Assembly: GCA_002731375.1 (NCBI GenBank)
Contig: PCBT01000057.1
Location: forward strand, 4,253-40,971
Direction: 5' to 3'
Origin: Rhodospirillaceae bacterium
GTDB taxonomy: Bacteria; Pseudomonadota; Alphaproteobacteria; GCA-2731375
DNA: 36,719 bases
Shown here: positions 1 through 24,155 of the stretch, piece after piece
Numbering within the stretch: the stretch's first letter is position 1
Layout: the number at the start of each line of letters is the position of its first letter
Made by a program: the position numbers and the translations under genes
The notes under the pieces: generated by a model
What the model was told of the DNA's origin: nothing
What the model saw: the letters and a program-made list of their open reading frames with translations, nothing else
The model's database searches: none

Positions 1-306
1 GTCTACGCCCTTGAACATCATGTGGAGCGCCTGGCCGAGGATCACGAGAATGCCCGCAACTTCAGCCGCGCCATCGCGCAAATTCCCGGCATCAAGTTGA
101 TTTTTGACCGTTGCGAAACAAATCTGGTGTTCTTCGATGTGGAGGAGACCGGCATGGACGCCGCCACGGTGGCCAAAAAACTACTAGCCCACAACGTCCG
201 CATCGGCGCTATGGGACCATATCGTATGCGGGCGGTAACACACCTGAACATTGACGCCGGACAGTTGGACGAAGCCGCCGACGCCCTGCGCAAGGTCGTT
301 TCCTAA
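1..306 (+). CDS. ltaE: Low-specificity L-threonine aldolase, C-terminal part (5' end outside window)
   Basis: The reading frame is open from base 1 and ends at TAA 304-306, so only about the last 101 residues are present. The opening residues (ALEHHVERLAEDHENAR) and the later pattern ETNLVFFDV...HNVRIGAMGPYRMRAVTHLNID match the C-terminal small domain of PLP-dependent threonine aldolases, which cleave L-threonine or L-allo-threonine to glycine and acetaldehyde in the cytoplasm. The PLP lysine would lie upstream of the window. The stop codon overlaps the stop of the convergent SelW-like gene by two bases. Family assignment is firm; substrate preference between threonine isomers cannot be seen. 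Confidence 0.85.
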   Translation, partial: VYALEHHVERLAEDHENARNFSRAIAQIPGIKLIFDRCETNLVFFDVEETGMDAATVAKKLLAHNVRIGAMGPYRMRAVTHLNIDAGQLDEAADALRKVVS

Positions 307-515
307 GCAATCGCGTCTAGTTCCTCATCCGTAGGGAAGCGGCCCTCGGCCTTTTTGGAATAGGCCAACCGACCATCCACTGTAATCTCGAACTTGCCAC
401 CGCTGGATGCGATCAGGCTGACGTCGGCGCCGAATTTGCCCAGAATCCGGTCCCTCGCACGGAGGGCTGTGGGTTCATAGTTTCACATTTGGCAGTATTC
501 GATATCGATCTTCAT
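303..515 (-). CDS. SelW/Rdx-family thioredoxin-fold selenoprotein (CxxU; in-frame TGA = Sec11)
   Basis: Reading from ATG 515 gives a 70-residue protein only if the TGA at 485-483 is read through. The TGA is codon 11 in the context YCQM-TGA-NY, exactly the second redox position of the CxxC/CxxU motif of the Rdx (SelW/SelT/SelH) family. Downstream the frame stays open for 59 codons and keeps the family pattern: SSGGKFEITVDGRL, then AYSKKAEGRFPTDEEL, and stop TAG 305-303. A Shine-Dalgarno (GGGAGAG) precedes the ATG. A 5-bp hairpin 16 nt after the TGA fits bacterial SECIS rules (separate entry). Rdx proteins are small thiol/selenol oxidoreductases of the cytoplasm. The gene starts 14 nt after the TerB/J-domain gene, so the two are probably co-transcribed. 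The alternative is a Cys-to-stop pseudogene, which the hairpin and intact downstream frame argue against. Confidence 0.83.
452..466 (-). promoter_or_regulatory. Putative bacterial SECIS hairpin after the Sec TGA
   Basis: On the minus strand, CCCTC (466-462), loop CGTGC (461-457) and GAGGG (456-452) form a perfect 5-bp stem with a 5-nt loop. It begins 16 nt after the TGA, so the apical loop is 21 nt from the Sec codon. Bacterial SECIS elements, which bind SelB, lie in the coding region just after UGA, with a short stem, a small loop with G in its first two bases, and a UGA-to-loop distance of about 16-37 nt. All three conditions hold here (G is the second loop base). CCCA/TGGG further out could extend the stem. 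Confidence 0.7.
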
Positions 516-529
516 CGCTCTCTCCCAAT

Positions 530-1267
530 CTAATATATTCCGCGCTGGCGGCAGATTCGGTCGTAGGCGTCGTTGATTGTGGCCAGCTTTTCCGTCGCCA
601 GGTCAACGAATTCCTGGGGCAAGCCGCCCGCGATGGCGCGGTCGGGGTGGTTCTCCTGGATTAGGGCCCTCCAGGTCCGTTTTACTTCTTCATCGTCCAC
701 ATCCGCCTCAATGCCCAGAATGGTGTAGGGATCGCCCAGGTCGGGACCCAGATGATAGGCCCGGATGCGGGAAAAGCCGGATTCGTCAAAGCCGAATATT
801 TCCGCCACCTTGCCCAGGTATTCCAACTCCACCAGATGCACCACCTGATCCGCCTTGGCGATCTGAAACAGGCCGTGCAGCAGATCTTCCAGCACCTGGG
901 AGGCCGGCTCGAACAGATCGGCGATCTGTCCAGCATAGGCCTCGAACCCGGCGACATCCTTGCGCGCCAGGTTAAAGACGCGGGAGACGCTTTTCATATC
1001 CTCGGGCGAAATCTTAAAGACCTGTTTGAAGGCCTCTACTTCGTCCCGGGTCACCTGGCCGTCGGCCTTGGCCATTTTCGCGCCCAGGGCGATGACGCCG
1101 ATGGTAAAGGCGATCTGCCGGGTACCATCACCGCTTTCACCGGAGAATTCGCCCGCGATATTGCGCAACTTGTCCGTGGCTTGCTCCGCCATGCCGCCGA
1201 GCAGAGCGCCCAGCGGGCCATCGAGGGCGCCACCAACACCACGAACAATTCTATTCCATATACTCAT
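530..1267 (-). CDS. TerB domain plus J-domain protein (DjlA-like co-chaperone)
   Basis: 245 residues. A glycine-rich N-terminus (1-45) is followed by an all-helical TerB-like domain (about 50-165) with the acidic KADG signature seen twice (GAKMAKADGQVT near 65, FQIAKADQVV near 137). A C-terminal J-domain (about 178-245) carries the HPD tripeptide at 207-209 that stimulates DnaK ATPase activity. The order TerB then DnaJ is that of DjlA, but there is no clear N-terminal membrane segment, so this is the soluble DjlA-like form common in alphaproteobacteria. ATG 1267 is divergent from the oxoprolinase gene across 129 bp. The SelW-like selenoprotein gene follows after 14 nt. Client proteins are unknown. 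Confidence 0.85.
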   Translation of the reverse strand: MSIWNRIVRGVGGALDGPLGALLGGMAEQATDKLRNIAGEFSGESGDGTRQIAFTIGVIALGAKMAKADGQVTRDEVEAFKQVFKISPEDMKSVSRVFNLARKDVAGFEAYAGQIADLFEPASQVLEDLLHGLFQIAKADQVVHLVELEYLGKVAEIFGFDESGFSRIRAYHLGPDLGDPYTILGIEADVDDEEVKRTWRALIQENHPDRAIAGGLPQEFVDLATEKLATINDAYDRICRQRGIY

Positions 1268-1396: not shown

Positions 1397-4300
1397 ATGC
1401 CTGAAAAATGGGATTTTTGGATCGACCGTGGCGGCACTTTCACGGATGTGGTAGCTAGGCGGCCCGAAGGCGGCTATCTCAGTCACAAGCTGTTGTCGGA
1501 GAATCCTGAGCAATACCCAGATGCCGCCCTGCAAGGTATCCGCGACCTTTTAGGCGTGGCCAAGGCCGATCCCATCCCCACCGAACGCATTGCCGCGGTC
1601 AAGATGGGCACCACGGTGGGCACCAACGCTTTGTTGGAACGCAAGGGCGACCGTACCCTGTTGGTCATCAATGACGGCTTTCATGACGCCTTGCGAATCG
1701 GTTATCAGACCCGCCCGCATTTGTTCGAGCTGAATATCCAGTTGCCCGAAATGTTGTACGAGCGGGTCTTGGAGGTCACGGGGCGGTACACGGCGCACGG
1801 CGAAGAACGCGCGCCGCTGGATCTGGACAGCGCCCGCGCCGGTTTGCAGGCGGCCTTCGATGCCGGCATCCGCGCTTGCGCCATCGTTTTCATGCATGGC
1901 TATCGCTTTCCCGCGCACGAAAAAGCGGTGGCGGAAGCCGCCAGGGAAATCGGCTTCACACAGATTTCCACCTCGCACCAAGTCAGCCCCCTGATGAAGC
2001 TGGTGGGCCGGGGCGACACCACAGTCGTGGACGCCTATCTGTCACCGATCCTGCGCCGCTATGTGGACCAGGTCGCCGCCGAACTTGGCGATACCCGCCT
2101 GATGTTCATGCAATCCAACGGCGGTTTGACCGACGCCAGCCTGTTTCAGGGCAAGGACTGCATTCTGTCCGGGCCAGCGGGCGGCGTAGTCGGCGCCGTG
2201 CGCACCACCGCCATGGCCGGCTTCGAAAAGATTATCGGCTTTGACATGGGCGGGACGTCGACGGACGTATCGCATTATGCAGGCGATTTCGAACGGGCCT
2301 TCGAGAGCGAGGTCGCGGGCATCCGCATGCGGGCGCCGATGATGCATATCCACACCGTGGCCGCCGGCGGCGGGTCGATCCTGCACTACGACGGCAGCCG
2401 CTTTACCGTTGGTCCGGATTCCGCCGGCGCCAACCCGGGCCCGGCCTGCTACCGACGCGGCGGTCCCCTGGCGGTGACCGATTGCAACGTCATGCTGGGC
2501 AAGTTGAACCCGGACTATTTCCCCAAGGTGTTCGGCCCCAACGGTGACGAGCCTTTGAGCCGCGATGCGGTGGCCGAAAAATTCGCCGCCCTGGCAGCCG
2601 AGATAGAAGCCTCGGGCCGGGAGCCCATGACGGTGGAGGCCATCGCCGAAGGCTATCTGACCATCGCCGTTGAAAACATGGCCAATGCGATCAAAAAGAT
2701 CTCGATCCAGCGCGGCTATGACGTCTCGGAATATGTGTTGAGCTGCTTCGGCGGCGCCGGCGGGCAGCACGCCTGCCTGGTGGCCGATGCCCTGGGTATG
2801 AAGAAGGTCTTTATCCATCCCCTTGCGGGCGTGCTGTCGGCCTATGGTATGGGCCTGGCCGATGTCCGCGCCATGCGGGAGCGGGCGGTTGAAGCCATCC
2901 TGGATCAGGGTCAAATGTCCGCCCTGGCATCGTCCCTGGATGAGCTGGCGGCGGAAGGCCTGGAGGAGCTGCTGGGCCAGGATATCGACCCTGCCAGGAT
3001 TAGCGTGCTGCGCAAGGTGCATCTGCGCTATCAAGGCACCGATACCGCCCTGGTGGTCAATTTCACCGACCTCGCGGGCATTATCGCCACCTTCGAGGAG
3101 GCGCATCGCCAGCAGTTCGGCTTCATTGATCAAAGCAAGGCGCATGTAGTCGAGGCGGTCTCGATCGAGGCCGTGGGCGCCGGCGAACCGGCGGTGGATA
3201 CGCCCTTGGATACCGCGGGCGGTGGTCGCGTCGACAGCATTCCCCCCCTTGCCAGCGTGCAGACCTATATGGCGGGAGTCTACCATGACGCACCGGTCAT
3301 CGACCGCAACCACATGCGTCCCGGCGACAAGGTCAGCGGACCGGCGATTTTGCGCGAGGATACTGCCACCACGGTGATTGAACCCGGTTGGCAGGCCGCC
3401 ATGACCGATGTTGGCCATCTGGTCCTGACCCGCATCCAGCCGTTACCAAAACGGGTAGCGGTGGGCACGGACGTGGACCCTGTGATGTTGGAGATTTTCA
3501 ATAATCTGTTCATGTCCACGGCCGAGCAGATGGGCCTGGTGCTGCAAAAGACCACCAATTCGGTCAACATCAAGGAACGGCTTGATTTCTCCTGCGCCGT
3601 GTTCGACCGGGATGGCGAACTGATCGCCAACGCACCGCATATTCCGGTGCATCTAGGATCCATGGATGAATCCATCAAGGCGGTGATCCGCGTCCACGGT
3701 GCCGTCATGCGGCCCGGCGATGTCTTCGTGCTGAACGCGCCTTACAATGGCGGCACCCATCTGCCCGACGTCACCGTCATCACCCCGGTGTTCAATAACG
3801 ACGATGCCGGCGAGGCGGCCACGGTATTGTTCTATCTGGCATCGCGTGGCCACCACGCAGAAATCGGCGGCATCTCGCCCGGTTCCATGCCGCCGAACAG
3901 CCGCACCGTCGAGGAAGAGGGCATTCTGATCGACAACATCAAACTGGTCGATCAGGGCCGTTTCCTGGAAACGGAAATGCGGTATCTGTTGGCCTCCGGC
4001 CCCTATCCCTCGCGCAATCCCGACAGCAACATCGCCGATCTAAAGGCACAGATCGCGGCCTGTGAAAAGGGCGTGCAGGAGCTGCGCCGCGTGGTGGAGC
4101 ATTTCGGCCTCGACGTGGTCTATGCCTATATGGGCCATGTCCAGGACAATGCAGAGGAATCCGTCCGCCGGGTCATCGACGTGCTGCAAACTGGCAGCTT
4201 TGAAGTGCCGTTGGATAATGGCTCAAAGATACATGTGGACGTTTCCATCGATCATGGGGCGCGGGCGGCTAAAATCGACTTCACCGGCACCTCGGCGCAG

Positions 4301-5020
4301 CTAGATACGAATTTCAATGCGCCCACCGCCGTTTGTCGATCCGCCGTGCTGTACGTTTTCCGCACCCTGGTGGACGGCAACATTCCCTTGAACGCGGGCT
4401 GTCTGAAACCCATTCAGATCATCATCCCCGATGACTGCATGCTGAACCCGAAGTATCCGGCGGCTGTTGTCGCGGGCAATGTGGAGACCTCCCAGAACAT
4501 CGTCGATTGCCTGTACGGCGCCCTGGGCCGCCTGGCCGCCTGTCAGGGCACCATGAATAACTTCACCTTTGGCGATAACGAGCTGCAGTATTACGAAACC
4601 ATCTGCTCCGGCACGCCGGCGGGCCCTGGTTTTCACGGCACCGACGCCGTGCATGCCCACATGACCAACTCGCGGCTGACCGACCCGGAAGTATTGGAGT
4701 GGCGCTTCCCCGTCATGCTGGACAGTTTCGGCATCCGGTCCAATTCGGGGGGCAAGGGCGCATTCAACGGCGGCTCGGGCATTCTGCGCCGGGTTAGGTT
4801 CCTCGCGCCCATGACCGCCTCGATCCTGTCCTGCCGCCGCATTGTCCCACCCCACGGCATAGCCGGTGGCGGGGACGGCGAGCCTGGTCGCTGCTGGGTC
4901 GAAAGAGCCGACGGTGGTCAGGAGGAGTTGTCGGGCTGCGACAGCGCGGAGATGACCCCGGAAGATGTCTTTGTTATTCAGACACCCACGGGCGGTGCCT
5001 ACGGGGAAGCCGGGTCATGA
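1397..5020 (+). CDS. Fused 5-oxoprolinase / N-methylhydantoinase (HyuA-HyuB type), ATP-dependent
   Basis: 1207 residues, the usual length of single-chain 5-oxoprolinases. The N-terminal half (about 1-690) is HyuA-like, with the actin-fold phosphate loop DRGGTFTDVVA at 10-20, a second ATP-binding stretch GFDMGGTSTDVSHY near 295, and SGPAGGVVGA. The C-terminal half (from about 695, MLEIFNNLFMSTAEQMG) is HyuB-like, with NAPYNGGTHLPDVTVI and the terminal glycine-rich GGGDGEPGR. Such enzymes hydrolyse 5-oxo-L-proline or hydantoin-type cyclic amides using ATP in the cytoplasm. ATG 1397 is chosen because it starts directly at the domain. The stop overlaps the regulator start (ATGA). Two transporters follow. 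The exact cyclic-amide substrate is not determinable. Confidence 0.88.
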   Translation: MPEKWDFWIDRGGTFTDVVARRPEGGYLSHKLLSENPEQYPDAALQGIRDLLGVAKADPIPTERIAAVKMGTTVGTNALLERKGDRTLLVINDGFHDALRIGYQTRPHLFELNIQLPEMLYERVLEVTGRYTAHGEERAPLDLDSARAGLQAAFDAGIRACAIVFMHGYRFPAHEKAVAEAAREIGFTQISTSHQVSPLMKLVGRGDTTVVDAYLSPILRRYVDQVAAELGDTRLMFMQSNGGLTDASLFQGKDCILSGPAGGVVGAVRTTAMAGFEKIIGFDMGGTSTDVSHYAGDFERAFESEVAGIRMRAPMMHIHTVAAGGGSILHYDGSRFTVGPDSAGANPGPACYRRGGPLAVTDCNVMLGKLNPDYFPKVFGPNGDEPLSRDAVAEKFAALAAEIEASGREPMTVEAIAEGYLTIAVENMANAIKKISIQRGYDVSEYVLSCFGGAGGQHACLVADALGMKKVFIHPLAGVLSAYGMGLADVRAMRERAVEAILDQGQMSALASSLDELAAEGLEELLGQDIDPARISVLRKVHLRYQGTDTALVVNFTDLAGIIATFEEAHRQQFGFIDQSKAHVVEAVSIEAVGAGEPAVDTPLDTAGGGRVDSIPPLASVQTYMAGVYHDAPVIDRNHMRPGDKVSGPAILREDTATTVIEPGWQAAMTDVGHLVLTRIQPLPKRVAVGTDVDPVMLEIFNNLFMSTAEQMGLVLQKTTNSVNIKERLDFSCAVFDRDGELIANAPHIPVHLGSMDESIKAVIRVHGAVMRPGDVFVLNAPYNGGTHLPDVTVITPVFNNDDAGEAATVLFYLASRGHHAEIGGISPGSMPPNSRTVEEEGILIDNIKLVDQGRFLETEMRYLLASGPYPSRNPDSNIADLKAQIAACEKGVQELRRVVEHFGLDVVYAYMGHVQDNAEESVRRVIDVLQTGSFEVPLDNGSKIHVDVSIDHGARAAKIDFTGTSAQLDTNFNAPTAVCRSAVLYVFRTLVDGNIPLNAGCLKPIQIIIPDDCMLNPKYPAAVVAGNVETSQNIVDCLYGALGRLAACQGTMNNFTFGDNELQYYETICSGTPAGPGFHGTDAVHAHMTNSRLTDPEVLEWRFPVMLDSFGIRSNSGGKGAFNGGSGILRRVRFLAPMTASILSCRRIVPPHGIAGGGDGEPGRCWVERADGGQEELSGCDSAEMTPEDVFVIQTPTGGAYGEAGS

Positions 5021-15577: not shown

Positions 15578-17266
15578 TTAACCCTCCAATAGTCCATAGA
15601 CGCGGCTTGCCGCGCCCGCGCTAATCCGGTCTTCATGCAGGTCGCGGCGCACCAAATCGCGATCACGGCTTTTGGGATCGCCATAGCCGCCGCCGCCCGA
15701 TATCTCTATCACGACCTGATCACCGGCCCGCAATGCCATGTTGGTGGCGGCGGGAAACGGCGTCGTCTGGCCGTCACGCACCAGGGCGAACATGGCACGG
15801 CTGCCTTCCTCGGCGCCCGCCAAGGCCCAAGGCCCGGTCATATGGCGGTCGCCATTAGTCGAGAGCAAAATACCATCCGCCAAAACATCATAGGTCCGCC
15901 GTACCCCGAGACCGCCCCGAAAGGCACCAGCGCCACCAGAGTCCCGGATCAGCTCATAGCTCCGGATACGAACGAAATCATGGTCCATTTCCAGGGCCTC
16001 GATGGGCGTATTGGCCGTGTTTGAGAGCATTTGCGCGACCACATCAGCGCCATCAATGGTTCGCCCGGCGCCGTTACCGCCCGAGATGGATTCGGCGAAC
16101 ATTTCGTATCCCGCACCCTGTTTCCGGCTCATAGTGACGATGTTCGTGCAATCGCTACCCGCCGCCGACAGGCGTTCCGGAATAACCGCCCCCAGCGCGC
16201 GCTTCACGGCCGATGCCGTGCGGTAGGCCGACGCCATGCGTCCGCGCACCGGCGCGGGATGCAATGGATCAAGGATCGAGCCCTTGCGCGTCCGTATCTC
16301 AATCGGGCGGTAAGTGCCATCGTTAGTCGGCACATTGCTGCCGGCAATCTGGCCGAACACGGTCATCGCCGCCGAATGTGTTGATGCGACCGGGCAATTG
16401 ACCGGCCAGGAAACCTGGTCATCGCTTTCAGACAGATCAACCACGGCCTCATCACCCTTAATGGTCACGCGGGCACGGACCATGGGCTGCGGGCCATCCA
16501 AGGTTTGCCCATCCAAGGCATCCTCGCCATGGTAATCGCCGTCCGGCAGATTGGCGATGGTGGCGCGCAGCATACGCTCGGAATAATCCTGCAGCTCGGC
16601 CATGCAGGTGCTGACCAACTCGACACCGTGTTTTTGTATTAATTCCTGAACCATAGCGCGTCCGCGCATGGCCGCTGACAGCTGGGCATGGAAGTCGCCC
16701 AGAACAATATCGGGCAACCGGCAGTTGGCGCGCAGCATGGCCTCGACCGGACCATCATAAAGATCACGTTCATTGATCTTCATGGAGGGAATGATGATGC
16801 CTTCATGAAAAATTTCTGTGGCATTAGCGTTGGAGCCGGCAACCGCACCGCCAAGCTCCAGATGATGGCAAATGCTCCCCGTGAAGGCCACCAGCTGCTC
16901 CTCATGAAAGACCGGCATCAGCACGATGATATCGTTCAAGTGCTGGCCGTTTTCATAGGGGTTGTTGGTGATGTACATCTCGTCGGGCTTGGTTTGGGAG
17001 ATGTCATAACGTTGGCGAAAATAGGGCACGGCGGCGGCCAAAGAATTCATGTGTACCGCGATGGCCTCGGCCTGGGCCACGGTGCGGGCGTCGGCGTCCA
17101 TCAGGCAGGTTGAGCAATCCTTGGCTTCGCGCACAATGGTGGAATAGGCGGCGCGCAGCATGATCTCGCTCATTTCCTCGGCAATGGAGCGAAAACAGCC
17201 CGAGAGCACATTGAAATCGGCTGGGTCCATAGTGGTTTTTGGGGCGCTTACGGCTGCTTTATTCAT
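15578..17266 (-). CDS. hyuB: Hydantoinase B/oxoprolinase family protein (beta subunit)
   Basis: 562 residues, typical for a stand-alone HyuB. Recognisable stretches are LRAAYSTIVREAKDCSTCLMDADAR near 38-62, ITNNPYENGQHLNDIIVLMPVF near 100 and HLELGGAVAGSNA near 136. VSWPVNCPVASTHSAAMTVFGQI lies in the middle, and the C-terminal glycine-rich GGGGYGDPKSRD is typical. With HyuA it makes the ATP-dependent enzyme that opens hydantoin, N-methylhydantoin, oxoproline or related rings. ATG 17266 overlaps the hyuA stop (ATGA), indicating coupled translation of subunits. It is the split counterpart of the fused enzyme at 1397. Confidence 0.88.
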   Translation of the reverse strand: MNKAAVSAPKTTMDPADFNVLSGCFRSIAEEMSEIMLRAAYSTIVREAKDCSTCLMDADARTVAQAEAIAVHMNSLAAAVPYFRQRYDISQTKPDEMYITNNPYENGQHLNDIIVLMPVFHEEQLVAFTGSICHHLELGGAVAGSNANATEIFHEGIIIPSMKINERDLYDGPVEAMLRANCRLPDIVLGDFHAQLSAAMRGRAMVQELIQKHGVELVSTCMAELQDYSERMLRATIANLPDGDYHGEDALDGQTLDGPQPMVRARVTIKGDEAVVDLSESDDQVSWPVNCPVASTHSAAMTVFGQIAGSNVPTNDGTYRPIEIRTRKGSILDPLHPAPVRGRMASAYRTASAVKRALGAVIPERLSAAGSDCTNIVTMSRKQGAGYEMFAESISGGNGAGRTIDGADVVAQMLSNTANTPIEALEMDHDFVRIRSYELIRDSGGAGAFRGGLGVRRTYDVLADGILLSTNGDRHMTGPWALAGAEEGSRAMFALVRDGQTTPFPAATNMALRAGDQVVIEISGGGGYGDPKSRDRDLVRRDLHEDRISAGAASRVYGLLEG

Positions 17267-19323
17267 GATCCGTCATCCTGGATATTTCGACGCAGCCGCA
17301 AGACACCGGAGGGTTCACAGCCGAGGCGCCAGTTCGGCGGCACCACGGTAGAGGTCGAAGCCTCGACGACGATGAGCGGCCCGTCGGCCTCGAAACCCGG
17401 CGCCAGGCCCTCGCGCCGCATCATTGGGCAGCTGAAACTTTTGCTGCCAATGGTTACATCGCGGCTGATCCCTTGCCCGGCTTCAGGCGCGTGCGAAATC
17501 CCGGCAACGGTTCCGCCGCGCCCGTGGGAGGCGCTCAATCGAAACGAGACCGCCTCGACCTGACGCTCCCGAAAAGCATGGCCGTATTGCCGCGCGTGTT
17601 CAGAATGGAAGCATTCGGCCAAATATGCGGCACCGCCGCTCAACAGTTTTTCCTCCATCAAAGGCACTCTGAGTTCATAGCCTTGGCCCCGGTAGCGGGC
17701 ATCGACGGCAAAGGCATGCTTCAGCTCCGAGACGTCATAACCGACATCGGCGAATGACCGGGCCGCCTCCGCCCGCAACTGGCCGAGTTTCGTCTGCAGT
17801 ATTTCGGGCGTCATAGCGGCGACGGCCTGGGCGCCCTCGGCCAGGACATAATCCATCTTGACATTGGAGAGCGAAAGCCCGACGGCGGAAAAGACGCCCG
17901 GATTGGGCGGGATCAAGACCTCGGCGATATCGACCTCGTCAGCCACCGCCGCTGCGATCAGGGGCCCAGCTCCGCCACAGGCAAAAAGTGCGTAACGGCG
18001 CGGGTCCAGGCCGCGCTTGACCGAAACCCGGCGCAGCGCCTGGGCCATGTTCGCGGCGGCGATTCGATAGACGCGTTCCGACAGCTCAATCTCGGACAGG
18101 CCAAGACTTTCACACAACGGTGCCGCCACGGCGCGGCTTAACCCTGGGTCGAGAACGATGCCGCCGGGCAGCTCGGTGGCTGGATCCAGCAAACCAAGCA
18201 GCAGCATGGCATCAGTCAAACAAAACCGTTCGCCGCCACGGTTGTAACAGGCCGGCCCCGGCACCGCGCCGGACGACTGCGGCCCGACCTGCAGCATGCC
18301 GCCGGCATCAATCGTCGCCATGCTGCCGCCGCCGGCGCCAATGGAGATGATGTCGGTCATGGCGATGTTGAGGGGCAGGCCCTCGATATTGAACTCTGAC
18401 GTCCCCTTGACCGTGGTTTCGGGACTGCCGTTGGTGATCAGACAGACGTCGGAACTGGTGCCGCCGACATCGATGGTGATGATATCCGGAGTACCAGCCA
18501 GCACTGCCGTTTCCGCCGCGCCCGTGACGGCGGCGGCGGGACCGGAATGAAACATCTGTGCCACCAGCCGCCGGGCCGCCGCCACCGGCGCGACACCGCC
18601 ATTGGAAAGCATGATCAAAGGCGTGCCAAGGAAGCCGACACCGCGCACGTCAGCCTCGAATTTCGACAGATAGCGTTCCACCACCGGGCGCATAAAGGCA
18701 GAGATAACCACGGTGCTGGCGCGTTCGTACTCGCGGTGTTCCGGCGCCACCTCGGACGATAGCGAGACATGGATATCTGGATGCCGGACCGCGATCAGAT
18801 CGCCGATGGCGCGTTCATGGGCCGGATTGGCATAGGCATGCAGCAGACAGACGGCGATGGAATCGACGCCTTTTTCAGCCACCAAGCGATCGACATGTTC
18901 GATCACCACAGCCTCGTCCAGCGGGCTGACAATATCGCCGTTCGCGGCCATGCGCTCGGGCACATCGAAAACCATGTCGCGGGAAATCAGCGGCGTCGGC
19001 TTCTGGTAGAACATGTCATAGACGACCGACTTGTCTTGGCGCTGAATGAACAGCACATCGCGAAAACCGGCCGTGGTCAGCAGGGCCACCTTGGCGCCCC
19101 GGCGCTGGATCAGGGAATTGGCGACAATGGTTGAGCCGTGCAGCAATTCGGTTACATCGCCACCCTTGGCGCCGAGGCGTTGCAATAATTCCTTAAGGCC
19201 AGAAATCGCGGCCCGGCTCGGGTCATCCGGCGTCGAGGGCGTCTTGTGTATCACCGCGCGGCCATCGTCTAGGACCGCGATCAGATCCGTGAAGGTTCCG
19301 CCGACCTCGATACCTACAATCAC
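17263..19323 (-). CDS. hyuA: Hydantoinase/oxoprolinase family protein, HyuA (ATP-binding alpha subunit)
   Basis: 686 residues. The actin-like ATP fold opens with MIVGIEVGGTFTDLIAVL (phosphate loop near 7-13). A second nucleotide segment is IITIDVGGTSSDVCLI near 278-290, joined by FHSGPAAAVTGA and SIGAGGGSMATID. ACGGAGPLIAAAVADEV near 450 is the third family signature. The usual HyuA length is about 680-700, so it is complete. Downstream it overlaps hyuB by 4 nt; upstream the ThuA-like gene ends 20 nt before its start. It couples ATP hydrolysis to cyclic amide opening; substrate unknown. Confidence 0.9.
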   Translation of the reverse strand: MIVGIEVGGTFTDLIAVLDDGRAVIHKTPSTPDDPSRAAISGLKELLQRLGAKGGDVTELLHGSTIVANSLIQRRGAKVALLTTAGFRDVLFIQRQDKSVVYDMFYQKPTPLISRDMVFDVPERMAANGDIVSPLDEAVVIEHVDRLVAEKGVDSIAVCLLHAYANPAHERAIGDLIAVRHPDIHVSLSSEVAPEHREYERASTVVISAFMRPVVERYLSKFEADVRGVGFLGTPLIMLSNGGVAPVAAARRLVAQMFHSGPAAAVTGAAETAVLAGTPDIITIDVGGTSSDVCLITNGSPETTVKGTSEFNIEGLPLNIAMTDIISIGAGGGSMATIDAGGMLQVGPQSSGAVPGPACYNRGGERFCLTDAMLLLGLLDPATELPGGIVLDPGLSRAVAAPLCESLGLSEIELSERVYRIAAANMAQALRRVSVKRGLDPRRYALFACGGAGPLIAAAVADEVDIAEVLIPPNPGVFSAVGLSLSNVKMDYVLAEGAQAVAAMTPEILQTKLGQLRAEAARSFADVGYDVSELKHAFAVDARYRGQGYELRVPLMEEKLLSGGAAYLAECFHSEHARQYGHAFRERQVEAVSFRLSASHGRGGTVAGISHAPEAGQGISRDVTIGSKSFSCPMMRREGLAPGFEADGPLIVVEASTSTVVPPNWRLGCEPSGVLRLRRNIQDDGS

Positions 19324-21744: not shown

Positions 21745-21788
21745 AACAAATATGAATGGGCGGTACGGCTGGATGTTGGGAGTATAGA

Positions 21789-24155
21789 ATGGCGGAAGCG
21801 GCGGAACAGCACGGCGAACATGCGATCGACCCGGTCTGCGGCATGACGGTCTCGTTACCCACCGAAAAACCCTCCTTCGAACATGCGGGCGAGGTCTATT
21901 ATTTCTGCTGTGCCGGTTGTGCCGGCAAGTTCGAAGGTAATCCCCAAGGCTATCTTGACGGCACCGCCCAGGCGGCGGCCCAGGTTGCCAAGGAGGCCGC
22001 GAAAGCCTTGGCCGCGCAAGAAGAGGGCGGCGACAGCCGAGGCGGCTATATCTGTCCCATGTGCCCCGACGCCTGGAGCGCCACGCCGGCGGCTTGCCCC
22101 GAATGCGGCATGGCGCTGGAAGCGGCCACGGTATCGATGGAGGCCGGGCCCAATGCCGAACTGATCGATATGACACGGCGCTTTTGGATCGGCGGCGCCC
22201 TTGCCCTGCCTGTATTGATCCTGGCCATGGGGGAGATGATACCGGGCCTTGCCAGCCTTGTCGGCGGTGCGTGGAACCCATGGGCGCAGCTGGCCCTGAG
22301 CAGCCCCGTGGTGCTGTGGGCGGGCTGGCCATTCTTCCAACGGGGTTGGAAATCCCTGGCAACCATGAAGCTGAACATGTTCACCCTGATCGCCATCGGT
22401 ACCGGTGCGGCCTACGGCTACAGCGCTATCGCCGTTTTGCTGCCCGGCGTCTTTCCCGAAGGTTTCCACGGCGCGGATGGGCGGGTTGCCATCTATCTGG
22501 AGTCCGCCGCGGCCATCATTACCCTGGTGTTGCTGGGGCAGGTGATGGAGCTGCGCGCCCGTGAGCACACCTCGGGTGCCTTGCGGACCTTGCTGGATCT
22601 GGCGCCCAAGACCGCCTGGCGTCTGAACGACGATGGCGGGGAGGAAGAAGTCAGCCTGACCGAAGTGCGGGTGGGCGATCGGTTGCGGATCAGGCCCGGC
22701 GAAGGCATTCCGGTAGATGGCGAGATCGTGAACGGCCACAGCGCGGTCGATGAAGCGATGATTACGGGCGAGCCCCTGCCGGTAGAGAAAATCACCAGCG
22801 ACGGCGTCATCGGCGGCACGCTTAATGGCACCGGTGCCCTGGTCATACGGGCCGACAAGGTGGGCGCGGAGACCATGCTGGCCCGAATTGTCCAGATGGT
22901 AGCGGAGGCACAGCGCAGCCGGGCGCCGATCCAGCGCATCGCCGATACGGTGGCCGGCTATTTCGTCCCCATCGTTGTCGCCTGCGCCATTGCTGCTTTC
23001 GCCGCCTGGGCCATTTGGGGGCCCAGCCCCGCCCTGGCATATGCATTGCTGGCCGCCGTGTCCGTGTTGATCATTGCCTGTCCCTGCGCCCTGGGCCTGG
23101 CCACGCCCATGGCGATCATGGTGGGCACCGGGCGCGGTGCCCAGGCCGGCGTCTTGATCAAGAGCGCCGAGGCGTTGGAGCGTTTCGAAAAAGTCGATAT
23201 GCTGGTCGTCGATAAGACCGGTACCCTAACCATGGGCAAACCGGCCTTGCAAAAAGTCATCGCCGCGCCCGGTTTCCAGGAGAACGAGGTTTTGGCCCTA
23301 GTGGCGAGCCTGGAGCGGGCCAGCGAACATCCCCTGGCCGCTGCTGTCGTTGCTGGCGCCCAGGCGCGGGAGCTGACGTTGGTCGAGCCAACCGGATTTC
23401 AGGCAACCATTGGCAAAGGTGTTGCAGGAGAGGTCGATGGCCGCGCGGTGGCTTTCGGCAACGCCGCCATGATGGCCGCGCGGGGCGCGGATATATCCGG
23501 TCTAGAGGCGGACGATTTGCGCAATCAGGGTGCCACCGCCATGTTCGCGGCGATCGACGGCAAGGCCGCTGGTCTGATCGCCGTCGCCGACCCGATCAAG
23601 GAGACCACGCCCAGCGCCATCCAGGCCCTACATGGGGAAGGTTTGCGCATCGTGATGCTGACCGGCGACAACCGCGCAACGGCGGAGGCGGTGGCGGCGC
23701 GGCTGAATATCGATGAGATCATCGCCGATGTCCTGCCCGACGAGAAGAGCGCGGCGGTGCGCCGGCTGCAGGATCAGGGCCATGTGGTGGCCATGGCCGG
23801 CGACGGCGTCAACGATGCCCCCGCCCTGGCCCAGGCCAACATCGGCATCGCCATGGGAACCGGCACCGACGTTGCGATCGAAAGCGCCGGCGTTACCCTG
23901 GTCAAGGGCGATCTTTATGGCATCGTGCGGGCCCGGCGGATCAGCCGGGCGACCATGCGTAATATCCGGCAAAATCTATTTTTTGCCTTTTTCTACAACG
24001 CCCTTGGCGTACCCCTGGCGGCGGGCGTGTTGTATCCGTTCTTTGGCCTGTTGCTCAGCCCCATGATCGCCGCCGCCGCCATGAGTTTGAGCTCCGTTTC
24101 GGTGATCACGAACGCGCTGCGCCTGCGCACCATACACTTGGAGATCAAGTCATGA
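21789..24155 (+). CDS. copA: Copper-translocating P1B-type ATPase
   Basis: 788 residues from ATG 21789. An N-terminal YHS (TRASH-like) domain at 11-57 has Cys17, Cys40/41 and Cys44. A heavy-metal-binding module at 87-110 follows (CPMC...CPEC, Cys89/92/103/106). Then comes the P1B ATPase core: [15 protein letters not shown], the TGEPLPVEK actuator loop, the CPC metal site (Cys431-Pro-Cys433), DKTGTLT with phosphorylated Asp475, the SEHPLAAAV nucleotide loop, and [12 protein letters not shown]. There is no classical HMA (GMxCxxC) domain. CPC and CueR control indicate Cu(I) export across the inner membrane. Its end overlaps cueR by 4 nt. An upstream in-frame ATG at 21756 would be almost leaderless. 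Confidence 0.93.

Follow-up and report, generated by a model that had tools for sequence, protein, structure and literature searches.

A SelW-like selenoprotein gene with an in-frame UGA and a covarying SECIS-type hairpin in a Rhodospirillaceae genome

The window analysed here is a stretch of 36,719 nucleotides from the draft genome of a Rhodospirillaceae bacterium (4.55 Mb, 115 contigs, 96.2% complete, 6.66% estimated contamination). It opens with the tail of a gene for a PLP enzyme of the threonine-aldolase type (1–306, plus strand), a C-terminal fragment for which all matches are below the curated cut-offs. Converging on this fragment is a short gene of the SelW-like (Rdx) family (303–515, minus strand), termed selW below, and the stop codons of the two genes overlap (304–306 on the plus strand, 303–305 on the minus strand). 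The selW frame runs from an ATG at 515–513 to a TAG at 305–303 and is composed of 70 codons plus the stop. Translation confirms the reading of the original prediction: a single TGA as codon 11, in the context YCQM-U-NY, followed by 59 sense codons. The product, 70 residues including selenocysteine (Sec), reads MKIDIEYCQM-U-NYEPTALRARDRILGKFGADVSLIASSGGKFEITVDGRLAYSKKAEGRFPTDEELDAIA, in which the UGA (483–485, minus strand) would supply the Sec of a CxxU motif whose Cys is codon 8.

Directly upstream on the same strand lies a TerB-DnaJ (DjlA-like) gene (530–1267, minus strand), assigned from profile matches. The 14-nt gap between its end and the selW ATG (516–529, minus strand) contains, by direct reading, a Shine-Dalgarno-like GGGAGAG, and the two genes are possibly co-transcribed. 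The TerB-DnaJ gene adjoins selW in all ten same-genus loci examined, own included. In L033 the distance is roughly 0.96 kb, and in the flanks examined of L034–L037 (26 bases before the ATG in L035) the gene was not detected. On this distribution a functional link between the two genes is weak. Farther along, the window carries two hydantoinase/oxoprolinase-type genes (1397–5020, plus strand, encoding an A+B fusion 1207 residues long; 17263–19323, minus strand) and a gene for a P-type ATPase that begins with a YHS domain (21756–24155, plus strand).

The protein matches the Pfam family Rdx (PF10262; E 1.1e-18, 67.6 bits, cut-off 22.6) with residues 2–66, covering profile positions 1–68 of 74. 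It also matches NCBIfam NF041051 (SelT/SelW/SelH family (seleno)protein; E 1.4e-25, 89.3 bits, barely above the cut-off of 88), a model whose short name, SelTWH_Campy, points to Campylobacter, and TIGR02174 (CXXU_selWTH; E 5.9e-14, 52.1 bits, cut-off 34.2). All three matches span the TGA and are above cut-off, indicating that the frame is more than a chance opening and that its proposed membership of the Rdx/SelW family was correct. The closest solved structure is Atu0228 (PDB 2fa8; E 2.1e-10), a Cys-type alphaproteobacterial Rdx protein that has the same Pfam-type domain, with CxxC where the window has CxxU. Animal selenoprotein W (PDB 2npb) is matched over residues 3–63 with an E value of 0.0026. 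In an alignment of ten sequences, with Sec written as C, both positions of the CxxC/CxxU motif are invariant. The SelW fold is thioredoxin-like, and the sequence matches suggest a fold of this kind for the window's protein.

A match to selW is present in 17 of 61 related genomes, and in 15 of the 17 the frame has exactly one in-frame TGA, at codon 11. The 15 genomes are the window's own, nine of the ten others of the genus, all four others of the family, and G025; a contig-end fragment in G014, also with TGA, is excluded from the counts. Cys8 and TGA11 are present in all 15 near orthologues. The remaining two matches (G030 and G051) show 39% identity, are free of stops, and carry TGC at the codon 11 position. 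Across ten same-genus loci, pN/pS is 0.142 before the TGA and 0.174 for codons 12–68, summed over all pairs and therefore not as independent values; the frame past the TGA is thus under purifying selection.

A class-wide search of 385 genomes returned 45 with a match: 28 with one TGA, 16 free of stops, and one with TAA. In the three distinct stop-free rows checked (L038, identical to L112; L039; L113), the codon is TGC. A second collection (genome_contigs) was searched with two patterns, one of them written for Cys at the codon 11 site, so that Cys forms should be within its reach. All 39 loci returned have TGA, 11 of them being repeats of sequences already counted, and no Cys form of the NYEP/GYEP-type SelW subfamily was seen among them. 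Their titles name mostly alphaproteobacterial MAGs, with a few Gammaproteobacteria and others; the cultured organisms are Rhodopila globiformis DSM 161 and Desertibaculum subflavum. A plasmid search gave 27 records, all below 60% identity; among the best 20 of the 27, five are annotated SelT/SelW/SelH and one Rdx, and the rest have another name or no annotation at the matching position.

The 16 stop-free class genomes of the 45, the one with TAA, and the draft state of the assembly would suit a pseudogene or a sequencing error, the TGA being a nonsense mutation or a misread TGC or TGT Cys codon. Against this stand the identical TGA in 15/15 near orthologues and 39/39 loci of the second collection (repeats included), the purifying selection beyond it and the covariation of the hairpin described below. 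Since close relatives retain both the frame and the TGA, selW is not a pseudogene, and the conserved TGA together with the downstream selection in practice refutes pseudogene and error alike, to which we attach almost no probability.

The original prediction implied that the genome encodes SelA, SelB, SelC and SelD, and named their absence, or decay of the frame in close strains, as evidence that would count against it. The frame and TGA are kept, as described above, and the whole machinery was found, so an objection from missing machinery fails. The selA gene (579.7 bits) adjoins selB (426.5 bits) on contig C63. The selD gene (L020, C46:47029–47955) itself has an in-frame TGA (HGGG-U-GCK). 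The tRNA-Sec (73.1 bits; anticodon tca by ARAGORN) is on a different contig from selB. The tRNA-Sec family search is a loose one, as its default limits matched 14/14 control genomes, five of them over the cut-off; a second over-cut-off match in the host genome (C47) is a tRNA-Ser according to ARAGORN.

Two features of the selD genes may be recorded here. After the UGA of L020, the minimum-energy fold contains a 5-bp hairpin with a CGUGUU loop. A second SelD (L021, C53:73670–74587) is of the Cys type (GGCGAK) and sits in a 756-residue frame behind a part that, judged by eye, is oxidoreductase-like; the arrangement resembles the Ndh-SelD fusions of marine bacteria that are mentioned in PMC2398784.

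SelA is over the cut-off in 13/15 genomes with the TGA-type gene versus 5/46 others (Fisher p 1.1e-7, kinship ignored). SelB is over the cut-off in 19/61 genomes, comprising 14 of the 15 with the TGA-type gene (G003, which is without SelA, among them) and five of the 46 others. The tRNA-Sec search took in 15 genomes, leaving out G010–G014 and G025, and found the tRNA in nine: nine of the ten of the genus (none in G002) and none of the five distant ones. Two genomes depart from the pattern. G007, of the same genus and 84% complete, has SelA, SelB and tRNA-Sec, and selW was not detected in it; G025, 77% complete, has the TGA-type gene and no SelA or SelB over the cut-off.

The machinery also bears on whether the TGA is read as some amino acid other than Sec, through suppression or a code of the TGA=Trp type. 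Nothing was found in favour of this reading, and we consider it highly improbable: tRNA-Sec, SelA, SelB and SelD are all present, the stop-free Rdx sequences checked (three distinct rows, and 2fa8) have Cys at the position, and other genes of this genome use TGA to terminate normally, for example EF-Tu (L012), whose frame it closes.

Beyond what was originally proposed, the UGA is followed by a covarying hairpin of the bacterial SECIS type, CCCUC-CGUGC-GAGGG (452–466, minus strand; bases 17–31 past the UGA). It consists of a 5-bp stem, which starts 16 nt past the UGA, and a 5-nt loop, CGUGC, which is 21 nt past the UGA and has GU at its second and third positions. According to PMC13188914, a bacterial SECIS has a loop of 3–9 nt, a stem of 4–16 bp, a G among the first two bases of the loop, a distance of 16–37 nt from the UGA, and an energy of -7.5 kcal/mol or lower. 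The selW hairpin is within all of these limits, and the centroid structure is the hairpin alone, at -7.8 kcal/mol. The 66 nt tested fold with an energy no better than that of dinucleotide shuffles (z 0.57; 148/200 shuffles at least as good), and Rfam gives a single chance-level snoRNA-like match (E 0.56). In four of the 15 near orthologues (L029, L030, L031 and L037) the minimum-energy fold of 60 nt omits the hairpin, the sequence of which is unchanged there.

Within the near orthologues, codons 17, 18, 19 and 21 (GCC CTC CGT, AGG) are identical in 15/15 and codon 20 in 14/15; most other codons among 12–40 vary, synonymously or more. For covariation we used 82 loci (L001, L024–L039, L049–L113), 78 with TGA and four with TGC. 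Once rows that agree over all 60 bases counted from the TGA are collapsed, 64 distinct TGA rows are left, the window's own included. All five pairs form in 49 of the 64 and at least four in 59; the misfits are 15 loci in which not all five pairs form in the same register, five of which have fewer than four. Both sides of a pair change together at three positions: pair 2 from C-G to U-A in six rows and to G-C in four, pair 3 to G-C in two and to A-U in one, and pair 4 from U-A to G-C in 12 and to C-G in one. The rows are related, and the counts are therefore not independent events. With codons randomised synonymously (1000 times), complete stems average 2.7 with a maximum of 8, versus the 49 observed.

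Sliding the 3' arm by 1–3 bases either way gives complete stems in 0/64 rows, as does shifting both arms by -1, -2 or +1 to +6. Shifts of both arms by -3, -4, -5 and -6 give complete stems in 6, 13, 11 and 3 of the 64 rows, respectively. Among the 15 misfits, the minimum-energy folds of L072, L079 and L084 contain a hairpin that is displaced by one codon towards the UGA and has CGUGC or CGUGU as its loop. The first CGTG is likewise one codon nearer the UGA in the TGA-type SelW genes L067, L071, L072, L077, L078, L079, L082 and L084, most of which have GYEPRAR after the Sec. L085, L086 and L087, titled Paenibacillaceae, Desulfuromonadales and Chloroflexi, likewise form all five pairs, in stems that differ in some of their letters. 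In Cys-type alphaproteobacterial Rdx genes, by contrast, the context is YCTQC(R/N)WLLRA, with Cys for Sec, and the five-pair stem is not formed in the three distinct TGC rows checked.

Termination and Sec insertion compete at a UGA. From this one could argue that the locus is real and its product a 10-codon peptide, with the downstream frame made from a separate start. The pN/pS values reported above, however, show constraint both before and after the TGA, and the Rdx match starts at residue 2, ahead of the TGA; we regard such a product as extremely unlikely.

The conserved TGA, the family match, the machinery, the downstream selection and the covarying hairpin together support a Sec-decoded SelW-like protein. 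The in-frame UGA of selW, as judged from these sequence data, is almost certainly read as Sec, as the original prediction held, and we have very high confidence that 303–515 on the minus strand is a functional SelW-like selenoprotein gene.

In the established bacterial mechanism, as outlined in PMC13188914, SelB with GTP and Sec-tRNA-Sec binds a hairpin and the UGA is decoded. Applied to selW, ribosomes would start at the ATG at 515 and reach the UGA at codon 11. SelA, with selenophosphate from SelD, would produce Sec-tRNA-Sec, and SelB-GTP carrying it is predicted to bind the CCCUC-CGUGC-GAGGG hairpin just downstream of the UGA. Sec would then be inserted at codon 11 in place of termination, yielding a protein of 70 residues that belongs with the thioredoxin-like SelW proteins and in which the CxxU pair would act as the redox centre. 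By analogy with its family, the product is probably a CxxU redox protein in glutathione- or thioredoxin-linked thiol-disulfide chemistry; PMC1088965 cites earlier studies that connect SelW with glutathione.

A pattern derived from the selW hairpin has 22 matches over the genome, some of them overlapping, versus six in a reversed control; one of the 22 is selW. Four further places were read out, of which two are convincing genes and two are not, and the others were scanned by eye for stem pairing. The first gene (L132; C26:12700–15700, plus strand; TGA at locus position 1466) is deiodinase-like, with FGSYT-U-PPFRKQ and a match to Pfam T4_deiodinase (E 1.9e-23), and its TGA is followed by a 5-bp hairpin with a CGUGC loop (pairing by eye). 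The second (L134; C25:9700–12200, minus strand) is PrdB-like, with an in-frame TGA in VPL-U-PVCHQ and a TIGR04483 match of 138.6 bits, below the cut-off of 300; here the TGA is followed by a 5-bp hairpin with a CGUGU loop (pairing by eye). The marine surveys PMC2398784 and PMC1088965 mention both families. The two genes are candidates for two more Sec proteins of this genome. A TGA flagged inside an EF-Tu match (contig C111) is the ordinary EF-Tu stop.

Sec-type formate dehydrogenase was not detected in the draft contigs, in which 13 PF00384 molybdopterin-oxidoreductase matches have no in-frame stop within the matched span. The Sec trait in Alphaproteobacteria is described in the literature examined as serving formate dehydrogenase. 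It is mildly notable that one genome with no Sec-type formate dehydrogenase detected nevertheless has a Sec-type SelW, a Sec-type SelD and two further Sec candidates.

SelW-like proteins are the most abundant selenoprotein family of the Sargasso Sea study, with 48 genes and bacterial SECIS elements (PMC1088965). The GOS survey reports 427 SelW-like selenoproteins with the motif CxxU versus 56 Cys homologues, and finds no families more widely distributed than SelW-like and SelD (PMC2398784). The window's gene resembles these in its SelW family, its CxxU motif and its bacterial SECIS inside the coding region, a likeness judged at the level of the family; eukaryotic SECIS elements, in contrast, are in the 3' UTR (PMC1088965). 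To describe selW as overlooked is justified only in part: these two studies have made the family well known, and the protein passes an NCBIfam model that already carries "(seleno)protein" in its name. In general, standard gene calling readily misses or shortens genes this small. A 2006 survey gives one selenoprotein family for the Alphaproteobacteria then sequenced and remarks that organisms containing Sec have hardly any Cys homologues of SelW-like proteins, or none (PMC1794560). In the open-licence library searched, this survey was the only paper found on SelW-like selenoproteins in Alphaproteobacteria, and none was found on a SelW selenoprotein in Rhodospirillaceae; PMC4607533 is related selenoprotein literature on Epsilonproteobacteria, and the papers found on selenoproteins and the Rdx family in bacteria deal, by title, with selenoproteins generally or in health.

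The selW of the window belongs to a selenoprotein kind already known as common in the sea. The sequences of the Sargasso Sea and GOS studies are metagenomic; here a member of that abundant marine family is placed in a genome alongside its decoding machinery. The family also gains a compact SECIS hairpin that stays paired despite altered bases in loci whose titles name other phyla, and a pattern made from this hairpin led to two further in-frame TGA genes in the same genome. Tentatively, and with somewhat less than even confidence, we suggest that the lineage may keep the Sec trait not for formate dehydrogenase but for redox selenoproteins (SelW, SelD, deiodinase-like and PrdB-like) that have in common a SECIS hairpin whose loop is of the CGUG[CU] type, and that SelW of the NYEP/GYEP type may be obligately Sec-dependent, with no surviving Cys form.
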